IMG/VR virus record: IMGVR_UViG_3300031884_000053
Coordinates: 1 to 43,764 of that record
Length of the DNA: 43,764 nt
Strand: one strand, 5' to 3'
DNA from: a virus
Positions 18,703 through 35,909 of this stretch are shown one piece after another; the first letter of the stretch is position 1, and each line of letters begins with the position of its first letter. The notes beneath the pieces are model-generated. The model was not told the DNA's origin and ran no database searches. It saw only the letters and a list, made by a program, of their open reading frames with translations. Both the position numbers and the translations under genes were made by a program.

Positions 18703-19677
18703 TTACACTATCATTTCAGAGGGTGCATAGATACCCTCTAAAAAGGCACTCCGAATAATTTGTTGCGACAAACTATTCATTCTGTTTTGATAATAGTTGA
18801 CTTCAAACGTCACCGCCTTTTTCTGGGCCAATGCGCTTATTTCAACCTGCCCCCGCTTTGCGTCTCTCGGCATGGGGGAGTTCATAATACCGAGCATCAT
18901 AGGATTATTCAGCGCGTAGTTTTGCACTGAATCAATCCAATCCATAATCATGTTATTGCGAATGCCATAAGTAATCACGCGGACATGATCTTTAGTAAGC
19001 TGCCAACGGTTTCCTGCATTATCCCAAAATGGAGCCGACTGCATGGGGGACGTGCCGTCTTCATCAATATGGATAACCGCATAAGGCGGCTGTATATTAT
19101 CCGGCACCAAATAACTAGGATAAACCGGAAATAGTTGATTAAGCGTCAGCCAAACCGGCAGGGAATTGGAAACTACTTGAGCTTGCCCAAGGTCATTGGG
19201 GTTATTGAGTATCTGTGACGCTAGAGACGCGTAAACGGCATCACCGCTGTAGTGATACAGGCCCGATTGTTTATACCAGCCAGAGCGGGTCGAGAACGCA
19301 TATTGTTCCCCATCCGTGGAGGCCAGATACATATATTGCGGATCAGTGCGCGCCAGATCATTGATTGGCTGCAAGCTGGTAAAGATCATCCGATGAACGG
19401 AGAAACTCTCGTCCGGGTCTTGCCGGTTAACCGTGGTATGATGCAGGGAGCCTTGCGCCTCAAACATCAGGGAATAGGAACTGTCATAGGAACCCGGCGC
19501 GAGAACCGATGCGTTCACCCAGAACACAAAGCCATCAACGGGCAACACAATGCGCTTATATAGCTCAAAGGTGACGCGCTGCTGTAGATCAAGCGTCTCA
19601 AGCCCCGCCCGCAGCGTAGACGCCATCTGGCCTTGATTGCCGGTGGTCTCAAATACAGAACCGCCACCGCCGCTCAT
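18703..19677 (-). CDS. Neck or connector protein of contractile phage
   Basis: A 324-aa protein from ATG 19677, chosen because it forms an ATGA overlap with the upstream gene. Mixed alpha-beta, it contains ELYKRIVLPVDGFVFWVNAS and IRNNMIMDWIDSVQNYALNN. It sits in the block between capsid and sheath, where neck, gateway and tail-terminator proteins are encoded. It resembles, from memory, a large neck protein common beside DUF3383 sheaths. The exact role (terminator or collar) is uncertain. Confidence 0.6.
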   Translation of the reverse strand: MSGGGGSVFETTGNQGQMASTLRAGLETLDLQQRVTFELYKRIVLPVDGFVFWVNASVLAPGSYDSSYSLMFEAQGSLHHTTVNRQDPDESFSVHRMIFTSLQPINDLARTDPQYMYLASTDGEQYAFSTRSGWYKQSGLYHYSGDAVYASLASQILNNPNDLGQAQVVSNSLPVWLTLNQLFPVYPSYLVPDNIQPPYAVIHIDEDGTSPMQSAPFWDNAGNRWQLTKDHVRVITYGIRNNMIMDWIDSVQNYALNNPMMLGIMNSPMPRDAKRGQVEISALAQKKAVTFEVNYYQNRMNSLSQQIIRSAFLEGIYAPSEMIV

Positions 19678-20102
19678 TCTTCCACCCACGCAATCATTGA
19701 GGTTTCATATAGGGCCGTGTCGATGAACGATGGGCGGGGGCCAGATGCGACCTTATCCTTAAATCGCAGCGAACGACGGTTTTGCGCCGCCTTGGTAGGG
19801 ACGCCGGGAATACCCATGCCTTCAATCTCGCCGGTCATCAGAAACGTGCGGAACTCTTGCCGAATATCCTGCCCAGCACTAGCGAAGGGATCGCCCACAA
19901 AGCCGCCTTCCAGAATGGCAGACAGCGCGTTTTCTATAGACGACACAAGCGCCTTGGTGATATCTTGTTGATGGGCCTCGTAAAAATTCCGCATTACACC
20001 ATACTTTTCCTCAAGTATGGTGGCGACGGTATAGGTCGTGGCGGGCTGGCCATCGCGGTTATCATAGGGCACATCTATGACGCCCAAGCAGAGGTCGGCC
20101 AT
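19674..20102 (-). CDS. Putative tail-completion or neck protein
   Basis: This 142-aa protein has a helical core (ALVSSIENALSAILEGGFVG) followed by GQDIRQEFRTFLMTGEIEGM and a basic stretch. It lies in the neck gene block with an ATGA overlap to the next gene. The arrangement adaptor-completion-neck-sheath suggests a head-tail joining role. No family motif was recognised. Confidence 0.55.
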   Translation of the reverse strand: MADLCLGVIDVPYDNRDGQPATTYTVATILEEKYGVMRNFYEAHQQDITKALVSSIENALSAILEGGFVGDPFASAGQDIRQEFRTFLMTGEIEGMGIPGVPTKAAQNRRSLRFKDKVASGPRPSFIDTALYETSMIAWVEE

Positions 20103-20103
20103 C

Positions 20104-20595
20104 CTAACTGACCCCCCAGTTTGTGCCTACACTTTGGGCAATGCCCAAGTATGTTCTGCCCCACACCGTGGTTGTTAGCTGCAACTGCCCAATTGTCAGG
20201 TTATTCGCTTGATGCGGTACAACCATGCTGGCGCTAGTGCCCTCATCGCTTGAGGATGAGACCGTGCCGGTGGTAAATCCCAGCATATTGTTCTGTTTGC
20301 GGATATACTGAAAGAACCCGTAGTTCACGTTCTCAACAGTGATATAAACTAGCCCCGGCACATCCGGTGCCCAAGTAGCCAAATAATGTCCGGCCAAGTT
20401 ATACACCGCAATCAAATAAAGCGGCCCCGGCACACACTCCAGCATCATGTTAACTGTGGCCACAGCCGTATTGTAAGCATACCCAATGGAAGGGGAATCG
20501 CTGGGCAGATATTCCACAGGCACACCCATCACACCGTAAACCCAGTCTTGAAAACCGGCCTCGGTGGGGATTGGCGTGTAGGGATATGTTGTCAC
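20104..20595 (-). CDS. Head-tail adaptor-like protein (GTG start)
   Basis: This 163-aa protein begins at GTG 20595 with AGGGA upstream. The N-terminus is helical and aromatic (EAGFQDWVYGVMGVPVEYLP, LYLIAVYNLAGHYLATWAPD). The C-terminal part forms strands and ends LGIAQSVGTNWGVS. First of the neck genes after the capsid block, it is a candidate for the adaptor ring under the portal. This is inferred from position. Confidence 0.55.
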   Translation of the reverse strand: MTTYPYTPIPTEAGFQDWVYGVMGVPVEYLPSDSPSIGYAYNTAVATVNMMLECVPGPLYLIAVYNLAGHYLATWAPDVPGLVYITVENVNYGFFQYIRKQNNMLGFTTGTVSSSSDEGTSASMVVPHQANNLTIGQLQLTTTVWGRTYLGIAQSVGTNWGVS

Positions 20596-20612
20596 CAGCG
20601 ATTCCCTATCAG

Positions 20613-21185
20613 TTAAGCGGTTTTGCGGGGGCGACCGCGACCACGAGACGCTTCAGGGGCGGAATTAACCCGCAGACCCTCTTCCAGCTTGGGAGCGGTC
20701 ATTTCAGGATCGCTCTGACCCACGCTCTCAAATTCCATCTCGAACCCAGTGGACTGCGTATTGCCCATTTCATTAGCAATCTCACGCAGGCCATAATCCG
20801 AAACAATGGCAAGGTTCTTGCGGCGCTCAACGCCAATGTCCGAAAGGCGGCCCATGTTGTGCGCCTTCACATCTTCACAGATCGGGCGAGGCACTGGCTT
20901 GTCCAATGACCAAACCAGCTTAACCACGCCCATGGACTTTGCTGTGCGTACGTCATCAACATTGACTGCACCCGCGCTAAATTCCAACTGCTGAACCAAT
21001 TCTTCTACCTGCCCCGGAAACAGATCGCCGCCGAATTGCACCTGAGCGCCAGCGGGGATTTCCAGAAACTTAGGCGGCAGAATTTTAGCGTCCATACGGT
21101 TGCCATTGCCATCAACAGCAAAATCAAGCCGGTAATATACTTGCCGATTCTGCGCCGTGCAGTTCACAACATAGAGCCTTGCCAT
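20613..21185 (-). CDS. Capsid-adjacent protein with AT-hook-like tail
   Basis: This 190-aa protein has a beta-rich N-terminal half (YRLDFAVDGNGNRMDAKILP, EIPAGAQVQFGGDLFPGQVE). A helical centre leads to an acidic linker and a basic tail ending ASRGRGRPRKTA, which contains the GRP core of an AT-hook. It follows the major capsid gene and may be a head or head-tail protein that touches packaged DNA (inference). Its Shine-Dalgarno sequence directly abuts a pseudoknot-like structure, so its translation may be regulated. Confidence 0.6.
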   Translation of the reverse strand: MARLYVVNCTAQNRQVYYRLDFAVDGNGNRMDAKILPPKFLEIPAGAQVQFGGDLFPGQVEELVQQLEFSAGAVNVDDVRTAKSMGVVKLVWSLDKPVPRPICEDVKAHNMGRLSDIGVERRKNLAIVSDYGLREIANEMGNTQSTGFEMEFESVGQSDPEMTAPKLEEGLRVNSAPEASRGRGRPRKTA

Positions 21186-28012: not shown

Positions 28013-28086
28013 TGGTGCCCCCACGAGGTAACGCTCCCCGGATTGATGCTTACAAGGCAACTGTTATGCTATTTAACTATAGGGGC
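28013..28086 (-). tRNA. tRNA-like cloverleaf, anticodon TGT (Thr), degenerate loops
   Basis: The minus-strand segment folds as follows. Acceptor stem of 7 pairs (28080-28086 with 28017-28023, one G-U), then T8 A9. D stem of 4 pairs with loop AATAGCA. Anticodon stem of 4 of 5 pairs with loop CTTGTAA (28050-28056). Variable loop AATC. T stem of 5 pairs with loop AGCGTTA. Discriminator A and encoded CCA (28013-28015). The D loop lacks GG and the T loop lacks the TTCRA core, so it may be a decayed tRNA or a tRNA mimic. It fills a gap between two late genes on the same strand. Confidence 0.45.
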
Positions 28087-30024: not shown

Positions 30025-30657
30025 TTATTGCGGGAGAATTAGAAAGAAGCTAGAGCCCGAGGAAGGATAACCTTGCTTGAATGAAAAAGCTAAAGACGAA
30101 AATGTGAGCGCGTCACTTATAGTAGACGTCCGCGATGTAGAAGTGCCAGCGGTAGATTGAGCCTCATCAACAACGCGAAGGCCGTAGTAGGTTAATGCCG
30201 TCGCCCCCGATGCCCTTGACGTGGTGCTAGTAGGCGTTGTTGGTATATCGCCGTTGGAACTGTTACTTACCGTAAAGAGAGATATGAGCAGGTCATAAGT
30301 CGATGTGGTGGTTTGCGTGTTAGTCGAAATGGAAGTTGCGGAACTTGATGAGTTGTAAGTCGCCGCAACGTCAAAGCCCGCTATAGTGCTGTAGGCCAGC
30401 ATAACAGCCGAGCCAGAACTAAGCGTCATCGAAACCGACGATTCACTGCTACCGGCGAATTTATAAAACGCGCTTGCATGAGTGCCGTTAGTGCTTATCG
30501 CAGTCCATCCCGTCGGCGTTGAAGGGGTGGCACTAGCAGCTACGCATATGACAAGAAGATTGCCCGATGCATAACCGGACGGGACCGGGATAGTCGCCGT
30601 GCCCGAGCCAACCTGTTGAACGGCACCAGCGCCGATAAAGGACCATATCTGTGCCAT
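30025..30657 (-). CDS. Beta-rich fibre-companion or receptor-binding protein
   Basis: A 210-aa protein from ATG 30657 (TAATG with the collagen-like fibre gene). It is rich in Ser, Thr, Ala and Gly with alternating strands ([59 protein letters not shown]), consistent with a jelly-roll or immunoglobulin-like domain often at fibre tips. It is translationally coupled to the fibre, which suggests it attaches to or caps it. It has no signal peptide, and no family was confirmed. Confidence 0.6.
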   Translation of the reverse strand: MAQIWSFIGAGAVQQVGSGTATIPVPSGYASGNLLVICVAASATPSTPTGWTAISTNGTHASAFYKFAGSSESSVSMTLSSGSAVMLAYSTIAGFDVAATYNSSSSATSISTNTQTTTSTYDLLISLFTVSNSSNGDIPTTPTSTTSRASGATALTYYGLRVVDEAQSTAGTSTSRTSTISDALTFSSLAFSFKQGYPSSGSSFFLILPQ

Positions 30658-33050
30658 TATGAAAGCGCTATCACATCCCAAACGGTTGTGGCTGAATTAT
30701 ACATGCAGCCCACATAAAGCGGCTTGGTGGAACTGCCATTTGTTATCGTGGGCAAGGTAATGCCGTCGGCATTGTATTGCGTGCCCCATGATAGCGTCTG
30801 GCTTGTGCCATTGTCTGTAATGCGGAGAATAAGGCTCTGCCCGTTTACAGGGGTGCCGCTCGGGTTTGCAATGGTGGCCGATGTAGACAGGCCGGTGACA
30901 TAATAAACATTGCAGGTGCCGGGAGGTGTGATAGTCGACGTGGACGTTGTGCCGCTCACTGTGGGGATAAACAGCGGGGTGGTAACGCTGGTGGTGAAAT
31001 TAGGCGCGGTGGAGCTGATCGAAGTCGTCCAAGCCGAACCTGTGGAAACCGGAATACCAGCTCCGGGATAAACCTGCGTTCCAGCAGGGCCGGTGGGGCC
31101 AGTCGGGCCAGTTGGGCCGTAAGGGCCAGCAGATCCGGTAGGGCCGACAACACTAGCGCCAGCAGAGCCCGTGGGGCCCGTCGTTCCTGTTGGACCAGTT
31201 GGACCGTAAACACCCGCAGAGCCCGTAGGACCAGTCGGGCCAGTGCTACCCGCTGAACCTGTGGGGCCGGTAGTGCCTGCAACACCCTGAGCGCCAACGG
31301 GGCCTGTCGGTCCAGTCGGGCCAGTCGGACCCGCAACCGATGAACTTGCGCCCGTGGCGCCGGTCGGACCAGTGGGGCCGGTGCTACCCGCAGTGCCGGA
31401 ACTACCCGCAGGGCCGGTGGGGCCCGTTGGACCAGCAACCGAGGATGCAGCGCCGGTCGGGCCTGTAGGACCTGTCGGGCCAATGCCTGTGGGGCCGGTA
31501 GGACCTGTCGGCCCTGCTACAGCCGAGGCGGCTCCGGTTGGACCCGTCGGACCTGTAGGGCCAACGTTGCCGGTCGGGCCGGTCGGGCCAACAACGCCAA
31601 CAATCGAAAACGTCCAGCTAGAATAAGAGCCGGAGCCCACTGTGTAGGCAACGCTAACCGTGATCGATGTATTGGCCGTCAGCGAGGTGATAACCCCCTC
31701 CTGATAAGCGGAGACGTTATTTAGAACACGGACCTGATCGCCAACGGCATAAGCGCCCGTATTGCTGGTGGCAAAAGCCTGAGATCCTATACCAATCGTC
31801 TGCGTCGTGGTTGACGTAACGCCAGCATAGCTAAGGCCAGTTGCGCCGGTAGGGCCGGTGGGGCCTGCAACCGTGCTAGCCGCACCTGTGGGGCCAGTCG
31901 GGCCTGTAGGGCCTTGTGGGCCGCTCGCGCCATCAAGATTGACCGTCCAGCTTGTGAACGTGCCGGAGCCCGTAATAGCTGTTACATTAGCCACTAGAGC
32001 GCCGGTTGCGGTGTTGTAGCTTGTCACCAAGCCCACCATGTAATTGGAAATGCTATTGGCGATGATAATCGGCTGGGCCGGTGTGTAAGCTAGACCAGTG
32101 CCAATAGTCAGAGATTGCGCTCCCGTGGCAATCGTCAAACTGGTGGTGCTAGTCGAAGCGTAATAAGTGCCAGCAGGGCCGGTAGGGCCTGTTGGACCGT
32201 AAGGGCCTGTAGGGCCGGTGTTGCCGACAGTCCCCGTAGGACCAGTGGGGCCAGCAACCGTTGAGGCTGCACCCGTAGGACCAGTCGGACCAGTCGGACC
32301 AGTCGGACCATTGGGACCGGGCACTGTAGACGCTGCACCTGTAGGACCTGTCGGCCCGGTGGGGCCTGTCGGACCATTGATGCCAGCCATTCCAGTCGGG
32401 CCAGTAGGACCAGCCGGACCATTAGCACCAGCAGCGCCAGTAGGCCCGGTGCTGCCTGCCGATCCCGTCGGACCCGTAGGACCGGAGTTAGGCGCAACCC
32501 AAGCCATTACTCCCGATGTCGATGCAGACAAAACGTAGTTATTGGCGGCAGGGCCAGCAGGAGGCAAAGTGTAGGTGGCCGAGGCCGTTGCAGATGCGCT
32601 TGGCTGAATAATGGTCGTTTGCGAATTGCTGTTGAACGTTAGTGTTGTCGCAGTGGCCGCGCCGATATTGGGCGTGGTGAATGAGGGGCTAATAGTCAGA
32701 GCAACGGTTGATCCCGTCCCGCTTACGCCATAGCTTGAAAGCCAAGAAGAGCCGCTGGAATAGACCAGACCAGCAGAAGGAAACGAAAAGCTATTGGGCG
32801 AACTGATGGTAATGCCGCCCGAGGCATTCGTGATATTAATACCAGAGCCAGCGGTCAGATTTGCAAGGGTGAACGTCCCGCTTGAAGTGCTGCCAATTAA
32901 AAGCTGGCCGTCCAAGGGAGGCGTTGTAACACCGGTTCCGCCTTGGCTTGCAGGCGCAGGGTAATCAACCTTACCAGACCAAGTGCTATCCCACTCGGCG
33001 GCAGTCGGCACATAACCTGTCGTCCAGCCGGGATTCGATGGTGTTGACAT
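30657..33050 (-). CDS. Collagen-like tail fibre
   Basis: This 797-aa protein has an N-terminal fibre domain ([40 protein letters not shown]; about residues 1-180). Gly-Pro-Thr triplet blocks are then interrupted by two 80-residue beta modules near 300-380 and 405-490. The C-terminal domain of about 135 residues ends [19 protein letters not shown]. Bacteriophage collagen-like fibres trimerise and expose tip domains (family knowledge). Placement between TerL and portal is atypical for a fibre gene. One module is closely similar to that in the gene at 1-2009. Confidence 0.85.
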
Positions 33051-34369: not shown

Positions 34370-34774
34370 TTAATCGCTCGGCAATCCGCCGTGAGCGACT
34401 ATCCTAACCGTTTTATCCTCATCGCCTGACTTTTTGCCATCAGGGATAAGGCCGTTTAGTTTTGCTAAATCCATAATGGCAAGACGCCATACTGAAAGGC
34501 CTGATGGCTCATCTATGCGCTCTGCCTTTTGCGCCACTCTCATCAGCTCTTGGCTGAGGCTTGCTATTGTGATTTCCGTTTTCTCGGCTGCGTGCTCTTG
34601 TAGCTCTTTAACGCGAGCCTTTATGTTAGCGTTAGTTAGTAATTTGCACCCATTTACTTTGGCGGTAATGGGTATGGCTTTGTAACCGGCCTCCACATAA
34701 GCATCAGCTTGGCTTTTGCCCTTGGCAATGGCTTGCGCAAACCTTTCATGCTTTGGATTTGCTAGGACCGCCAC
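34370..34774 (-). CDS. Terminase small subunit (GTG start)
   Basis: This 134-aa protein begins at GTG 34774 with AAGGAG 8 nt upstream. The N-terminal helix-turn-helix region of the Terminase_2 kind is visible: NPKHERFAQAIAKGKSQADA, then YVEAGYKAIPITAKVNGCKL and LLTNANIKARVKELQ. A helical oligomerisation part follows. It recognises the packaging start site and recruits TerL. The recognition site is probably close by, and the unusual gap just upstream is one candidate. Confidence 0.88.
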   Translation of the reverse strand: MAVLANPKHERFAQAIAKGKSQADAYVEAGYKAIPITAKVNGCKLLTNANIKARVKELQEHAAEKTEITIASLSQELMRVAQKAERIDEPSGLSVWRLAIMDLAKLNGLIPDGKKSGDEDKTVRIVAHGGLPSD

Positions 34775-34849
34775 TCGGGTAACTCCTTATCCGGCGGTGA
34801 TCTTATTTTGCCGGGTTAGTTGGTATATTCTCCCATGTAGGGATTGCCC

Positions 34850-34883
34850 TAATAAAACGAAACCCCGCCGGTTGAGGGCGAGG
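34850..34883 (-). terminator. Intrinsic terminator before terminase genes
   Basis: On the minus strand a 7-bp stem CCTCGCC-GGCGGGG with loop CTCAACC (34863-34883) is followed by TTTCGTTTTATT. The third pair is T-G in this orientation but C-A on the plus strand, so the hairpin is stronger as minus-strand RNA. It would end the transcript from the structured gap upstream. TerS then needs its own promoter or antitermination. Confidence 0.75.
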
Positions 34884-35283
34884 CGTCGTGCGAAAGCTGT
34901 GAAGGCGTGTCGCACAAAACACAGTAGATGCTTTTTTCCAGCTGTCAAATTAAAACGTGCCCAGCCCGTTTAGGGGCTATGTAATTTACCCACCCTTTAT
35001 TCGCTCGCGTCTCTAGTGATACGCCTTCCAGTGATCGAATAGGATGGGAAGGCTCTTTGTGAGAGAGCCTAAACAAAAGCAAGGGCTTCCACCTGCTGCC
35101 AGTAGATCAGCACCGGATTGCCTCGGCTGCGAGACTACTGTCTGCCCTTGCAAGGGGCAAAGCTCGGAAATGACCGGCGCGCAGGGGTGGGGGATTAGGC
35201 ACCCAAGGCACTATTAGGATCGGAGTCCCGGCTTAAGAAAGCGCGAGTAAGGCCCAACTCCCTATCCGCGCTAGTGGTATTTT

Positions 35284-35310
35284 GAAAAATGCCGTGGCGC
35301 AATTCGCCAC
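35284..35310 (-). terminator. Terminator-like hairpin after the 182-aa gene
   Basis: The minus strand carries GTGGCG-AATTG-CGCCAC (35294-35310), a perfect 6-bp stem, followed by GGCATTTTTC. It lies 51 nt past the stop of the upstream gene and may end the early transcript. It could instead be the first hairpin of the structured RNA, since a promoter-like site is just upstream. Confidence 0.55.
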
Positions 35311-35320
35311 TCTGACTATT

Positions 35321-35349
35321 TGCTATCATGGTCCCGTGCCAATTGTCAA
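35321..35349 (-). promoter_or_regulatory. Sigma70-like promoter candidate for the structured gap
   Basis: There is a perfect TTGACA at 35344-35349 on the minus strand. At 16-17 nt spacing it is followed by a weak minus-10 region around GATAGCA (35321-35327). It lies in the gap just after the 182-aa gene and points towards the structured RNA and late genes. The minus-10 match is poor, so the call is tentative. Confidence 0.35.
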
Positions 35350-35360
35350 TAGGGATGCAA

Positions 35361-35909
35361 TTAAAAACCACCGATGGCTTTAGCTATTTTATCACCGGCC
35401 TTGCGTAGTTCTGCCATCGCCATTTTATGAATAGATGTTTTAGGCTCAAACCATGTTATTACTCTGCCGTCTTTTCCAATACGCTGGCGCATGATTGAGC
35501 CATATTTAGCCATAGCCCACTGACTGACCGTTTGCTCTTGTATGGTTACTGCTCGGACAATATCGCAAAGGGGGCCAAGCGCTTTATCCATTCGGCCCAT
35601 TTCTAGTATTGCTCTTATAGTGTAAGGCGGTAATCCACCGTCTCCACCTCCCCTTGGTGTCCTATCCAGAGTGCAGCGGGTAGGGGATAAGTCTTGAGCG
35701 ATAGCCATGTTGCGGTAATGGGTAAGGGCAGCATATTGCTGGTCTGTTATGTGACCCGCCGCCACCATGACATCAATCACGGGCAATCGGCGGTATGCCA
35801 GCTTGGCGCGGACAAATATCCCTTGGGCCATTTGCTCGTCTGTGGGGGCTACAATATCCACCCGATCTTCAACGGGCTTTGCCTTTTTGACCTTGCGCGC
35901 CTTTGCCAT
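35361..35909 (-). CDS. Unknown protein at the end of the early block
   Basis: This 182-aa protein has a basic start (MAKARKVKKAKPVEDRVDIV). A helical middle (YRRLPVIDVMVAAGHITDQQ) leads to a predicted helix-turn-helix-like segment AVTIQEQTVSQWAMAKYGSI and a basic C-terminus. It is the last gene before the terminators and late genes, where phages often place a late-gene activator or antiterminator. That role is suggested by position only. No family was recognised. Confidence 0.55.
   Translation of the reverse strand: MAKARKVKKAKPVEDRVDIVAPTDEQMAQGIFVRAKLAYRRLPVIDVMVAAGHITDQQYAALTHYRNMAIAQDLSPTRCTLDRTPRGGGDGGLPPYTIRAILEMGRMDKALGPLCDIVRAVTIQEQTVSQWAMAKYGSIMRQRIGKDGRVITWFEPKTSIHKMAMAELRKAGDKIAKAIGGF

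Follow-up and report, generated by a model that had tools for sequence, protein, structure and literature searches.

A structured RNA, probably common to unrelated phages, in a gene-free gap beside TerS of a lake phage

The gap beside TerS and its conservation within the clade

The window (the whole 43,764-nt stretch of an IMG/VR record that was analysed) comes from a tailed lake phage whose sheath gene indicates a contractile tail. A GapR-like DNA-binding protein encoded by the phage at 39879-40130 on the minus strand (Pfam E=9e-34), the counterpart of an alphaproteobacterial chromosome protein, points to an alphaproteobacterial host. Almost every gene runs leftward, with a few bases between neighbours. 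The exception is a 586-bp non-coding gap at 34775-35360, bordered on one side by the GTG of TerS at 34774 and on the other by the stop of a gene for a 182-aa protein at 35361. Elsewhere in the window, a tRNA gene lies within the structural gene block (28016-28086, minus strand; Rfam 44.9 bits). It is missed by ARAGORN and, judged from its anticodon loop, is probably Thr(UGU). A 797-aa collagen-like protein of Gly-Pro-Thr repeats is encoded between TerL and portal (30657-33050, minus strand), and collagen-like repeat DNA is also present near the left end of the window (about 1-300).

A sequence-only reading of the window had described a gene-free gap of about 580 bp at this place, rich in inverted repeats, with a terminator and wobble pairs on one side only. 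The measured gap contains no conserved ORF, and the repeats, terminator and wobble pairs were all found in it as listed, including a 13-pair helix (H2, 35272-35260 with 35252-35240). Direct repeats are limited to two, 8 nt each, and do not form an array of the kind bound by TerS. Searches with TerS and TerL recovered two contigs identical in the region and two diverged ones (L003 and L004). The conserved core of the gap and the features that flank it are as follows.

35344-35349, minus strand: TTGACA, putative -35 element of a promoter for the RNA itself; kept in L003 and L004, with a poor -10
35294-35310, minus strand: hairpin H1, GTGGCG-AATTG-CGCCAC; ATGACG-AATTG-CGTCAT in L003, two double compensatory changes; window clade only
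35240-35272, minus strand: helix H2 of the 5' domain; window clade only
35077-35190, minus strand: conserved RNA core of 114 nt, common to all lineages; matched by covariance models R1/R2 in the window, L003, L004, VSN-002 and L097/L098
34995-35075, minus strand: variable block with hairpins AGGCTCT (about 35051-35071) and CTTCC..GGAAG; 61 nt of it absent from L003 and L004
34851-34884, minus strand: intrinsic terminator between the RNA and TerS (repeat at 34884-34862); present in L003, deleted in L004

The window and L003 share 91% identity in the gap core; at fourfold sites identity is 71% in the 182-aa gene, 59% in TerS and 47% in TerL. The longest ORF common to the two (53 aa, TTG start) carries 4 synonymous and 13 non-synonymous differences and the gap contains single-base indels, so that the constraint on the gap does not act on a protein. 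In H2, the window has one A-C and L003 none, since the A-C has become G-U in L003, which carries one extra G-U. These changes are consistent with wobble pairing only; the double compensatory changes of the 5' domain are in H1.

Several of the listed repeats are not conserved. The AGGCTCT hairpin, a 7-bp element of the sequence-only reading, is present in the window and lies in the block that L003 and L004 lack, and about 88 nt, the terminator included, are missing from L004. Because the block is absent from both contigs and the terminator from one of them, neither the two-hairpin 61-nt block nor the terminator is essential to the element as these contigs present it. The nest formed by an 8-bp inverted pair (GCAAGGGC/GCCCTTGC, 35079-35086 with 35144-35151) around CAGTAG/CTACTG is there in the window but is no conserved fold; its 8-bp pair is broken on the minus strand in both L003 and VSN-002.

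The folding energy of 471 nt of the gap was moderately low on either strand (z=-2.1 on the minus strand, z=-2.4 on the plus strand). That of the 249-nt 5' part gave z=-0.7, the z-scores of core folds were close to the mean, and single-sequence energies were unremarkable. Since the energy is only moderately low, and on both strands, single-sequence evidence leaves the structure unsettled; folding energy by itself is weak evidence, and the comparative evidence decides.

Carriers in other phages

A blastn search with the 5' part of the gap matched an unannotated gap of Sphingopyxis phage VSN-002 (MZ127829; 74% over 89 nt, E=3e-6). This P22-like phage with a telomere resolvase comes from Lake Biwa and was obtained on the Sphingomonadaceae strain BSN-002 (PMC9302152). 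Covariance model R1 was built from the window, L003 and VSN-002, leaving out two viral contigs, L097 and L098, of a third phage, which it then matched at 48.5 bits. The two contigs had been fetched from IMG/VR by a loose pattern that covered only part of the core, outside P4 and the 5' strand of P2 (helices listed below). When the L098 element was compared with phages by blastn, VSN-002 was the sole significant match (E=4e-6). Under the final model, R2, no carrier scored below 98 bits, and the best score among about 0.9 Mb of other sequence was 16. Among the proteins of the three phages a single weak similarity was seen, one VRR-NUC at 32%. From these sequences, the core is probably a real non-coding RNA common to phages, with at least two carriers unrelated to the window phage.

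The neighbourhoods of the copies differ. In VSN-002 the core lies at 21.5 kb (21615-21496, minus strand of MZ127829), some 20 kb from TerS (1.5-1.9 kb). It follows the last late gene in a 377-bp gap with a convergent gene ahead, and no gene lies downstream on its strand. In L098 a gene for a 65-aa protein begins about 45 nt downstream of the core. Separately, 2.2 kb of VSN-002 (18893-21071) are without annotated genes despite open frames, which is probably under-annotation.

Wider searches added no carrier. Scanning IMG/VR for three exact fragments of the RNA and for one early pattern returned the four known contigs and chance matches only, a pattern scan of the genome collection gave only chance matches, and blastn of the window gap against plasmids found nothing. 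With VSN-002 and L098 as queries, plasmid matches were weak, and those in a Paracoccus response regulator and a Cupriavidus thiolase were rejected as coding coincidences. No host-genome copy was found in about 480 alphaproteobacterial genomes, among which coverage of Sphingomonadales is uncertain; the matches were all weak, the best, at 30.9 bits, apparently lying in a P-type ATPase gene, and two further ones reaching about 25 bits. The gaps upstream of TerS in distant relatives (L006-L011 and L074) are without the RNA core. In two of these (L006:4404-5000 and L074:1968-2583) about 600 bp precede TerS, opening with terminator-like sequence after the upstream gene, and are possibly other regulatory or packaging sites.

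Structure, strand and novelty of the core

Structure statistics were taken from alignment A9 of four lineages (window, L003, VSN-002 and L098). Helices P2, P3 and P4, hairpin P5 on the 3' side and a pseudoknot with a loop are kept across all four. Their elements in the window, in the direction of the minus strand, are the following.

35173-35178, minus strand: 5' strand of P2, GCCGGT, pairing with 35103-35098; GCCGCT/AGCGGC in VSN-002, GCCAG/CTGGC in L098
35144-35158, minus strand: hairpin P4, GCCC-CTTGCAA-GGGC; CCGC-CTCGCAA-GCGG in L098, two full compensatory pairs
35121-35134, minus strand: hairpin P3, TCTCG-CAGC-CGAGG; CCTTG-CRGC-CGAGG in VSN-002 and L098
35118-35120, minus strand: CAA 3' of P3, pseudoknot partner of TTG in the P4 loop (35153-35151), from covariation
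35098-35103, minus strand: 3' strand of P2, ACTGGC, on the same basis as its 5' strand
35082-35094, minus strand: hairpin P5, AGG-TGGAAGC-CCT; A-T to C-G in L098, an A-C mismatch in L003

Pairs of P2 change from G-C to C-G and through G-U, G-C and A-U, and both changes in P3 preserve pairing on the minus strand only. The 7-nt loop of P4 has the consensus CUYGCAM. Its pseudoknot is TTG/CAA in the window and L003 and TCG/CGA in VSN-002 and L098, a double change from U-A to C-G. A pseudoknot had been suggested by the sequence-only reading; one exists, between the P4 loop and the CAA after P3, but it is not the pairing then proposed. An invariant segment, GGUGGAAGCCC, lies 3' of the pseudoknotted part. 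The P5 loop (TGGAAGC) is also invariant, and in the window P5 is followed by TTTTGTTT; the window is the only carrier in which P5 resembles a terminator with a T-tract. P5 excludes a further helix, P1 (CCACC at 35190-35186 with GGTGG at 35093-35089), and as both need the same strand, the RNA might switch between two conformations.

Compensatory changes in related phages had been named beforehand as the way to check the helices. In A9, an alignment fitted partly to the R1 structure (P2, P3 and P4), with P5 and the pseudoknot outside that model, five pairs of the core are altered on both sides and standard pairs fill 97.6% of pair cells. Shuffles matched the values for pairing, double changes and covariation in 0-1 of 500 cases and the number of pair types in 16 of 500, and structures slid along the alignment paired in 27-45% of cells. 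In an unguided MAFFT alignment (A8), the only double change was in the pseudoknot and the total was reached by 59 of 200 shuffles, which is not significant. The four lineages that are distinct provide few independent events. The minimum-energy fold of L098 does not contain P4.

Over the core and the 5' helices, G-U outnumbers A-C by 11:2 on the minus strand, and these wobble pairs fix the minus strand as that of the RNA. The covariation and this ratio bear out the earlier proposal of a structured non-coding RNA on the minus strand. A single RNA some 450 nt long that carries its own terminator was not supported: the conserved unit is 114 nt, the 5' domain is found in the window clade only and L004 is without the terminator. 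Comparison of the sequences establishes homology, structure, strand, non-coding status and differing contexts for the core; that it is transcribed, uses a promoter and acts in trans we infer.

The Rfam search proposed with the sequence-only reading gave no match: in Rfam 15, ROOL and GOLLD included, nothing was found for the window, L098 or VSN-002 up to E values of 5-10, and the best scores were far below gathering scores. A likeness between GAGGCRAUCCGG and a motif of RNase P was set aside, as there was no RNase P match in Rfam. Non-coding status and conserved structure with covariation, in four lineages only, place the core among phage-encoded structured non-coding RNAs, a known kind of which, judged from these comparisons, it is a new family absent from Rfam. 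To our knowledge, few structured RNA families are known from phages and hardly any has a function. ROOL and GOLLD are large ornate phage RNAs (PMC12286853, PMC7567579). Like them, the RNA described here is structured, non-coding and located in an ORF-free gap of a phage genome; unlike them, it has a conserved core of about 115 nt rather than several hundred, with clade-specific flanks, and does not lie beside a tRNA. Phage ICP1 makes an abundant non-coding RNA of about 800 nt near its lysis cluster (PMC7567579), which likewise lies outside coding genes, in a lytic-phage gap free of ORFs, but is several times larger.

Alternative explanations and proposed action of the RNA

The gap very likely holds a functional structured RNA, judged from comparison. 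The alternative that survives best, though we consider it unlikely, is a cis-acting leader of the late operon, whose co-transcriptional folding would choose between read-through into TerS and termination, either at P5 with its T-tract or at the 34862 terminator. Lambda 6S RNA in the PR' leader and the HK022 put RNAs have a promoter, an RNA and a terminator ahead of late genes, and the window gap has the same layout, with the core directly upstream of TerS, TTGACA at the start and the terminator at the end. The mutual exclusion of P5 and P1 resembles a terminator/antiterminator switch, the 65-aa gene of L098 lies close downstream, and in L004 the core is kept and the terminator lost, which would there fuse it to TerS. 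Against this, same-strand late genes do not follow the core in every carrier, for the VSN-002 copy faces a convergent gene and has nothing to regulate on its strand. Only the window has a P5 and T-tract that convince as a terminator, no relation between the 182-aa neighbour and known antiterminators was detected, and no Q-like protein was recognised.

It is improbable that the gap acts as DNA, either as a cos/pac site bound by TerS or as a replication origin with extruded hairpins. It adjoins TerS, as is typical for cos/pac and as in SPP1 pac and lambda cos, it is conserved as DNA, and the TerS of the window is a Terminase_2 protein, of the family that includes pac-type proteins such as SPP1 gp1. 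The distance of 20 kb between core and TerS in VSN-002 breaks this association, however, and the differing context of that copy disfavours cos/pac and the late-operon leader alike, including the idea that the repeats are mere TerS binding sites. Moreover, two 8-nt direct repeats make no TerS-type array, and the helices show RNA-type covariation: they survive sequence change and use G-U pairs of one strand, neither of which a DNA site needs. We give similarly little credence to conserved non-coding DNA with inverted repeats by chance and no functional RNA; core folds near the mean and the few sequences would fit it, but homology across unrelated phages and compensatory changes in P2, P4 and the pseudoknot speak against it.

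A small or decayed protein gene, for which one could cite the 46-aa frame open across the VSN-002 core (ARADVTLAAEAIR) and several window/VSN-002 differences at third positions, is hardly credible: indels disrupt every reading frame of the core, this frame has a TGA common to the window and L003, a frameshift in L003 and two further +1 shifts in L098, the 91% identity of window and L003 persists despite its loss, and for the peptide tblastn gave no credible relative and Pfam no match.

We lean, by a narrow preference, towards a stand-alone phage RNA that acts in trans. The core occurs in unrelated phages, in differing neighbourhoods and once without a same-strand gene downstream, which argues for an independent RNA that would bind a protein or another RNA in the infected cell, rather than a TerS leader. 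In its predicted form P2 encloses P4 and P3, with the P4 loop paired 3' of P3 and GGUGGAAGCCC next to it. Three phages with almost no common proteins keep the same RNA, and this suggests a common host target. As a tentative extension, the RNA module may move among unrelated alphaproteobacterial phages and have as its trans target a conserved component of the host such as RNA polymerase, the ribosome or a defence system. The compact core, the covariance model, the three unrelated carriers and the cultivated pair of VSN-002 and its host (PMC9302152) make the proposal directly testable.

Transcription of the trans-acting RNA would run leftward, probably from its own sigma-70-like promoter with TTGACA near 35349, and in the window the 3' end would lie at about 35070, past P5, or else near 34851, at the terminator. 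Promoter-consensus matches in the window were not in excess over shuffles. The TTGACA of the window and L003 has a poor -10. The L098 copy is preceded by a near-consensus TTGACA-18-TATAAA, and no promoter could be recognised in VSN-002, whose copy may depend on late read-through. A further TTGACA in the window (34948-34921, minus strand), its -10 weak, lies upstream of the terminator and could drive an RNA of 60 nt (about 34914-34855). In L004 this -35 is mutated and the stretch from the -10 to the terminator is deleted.
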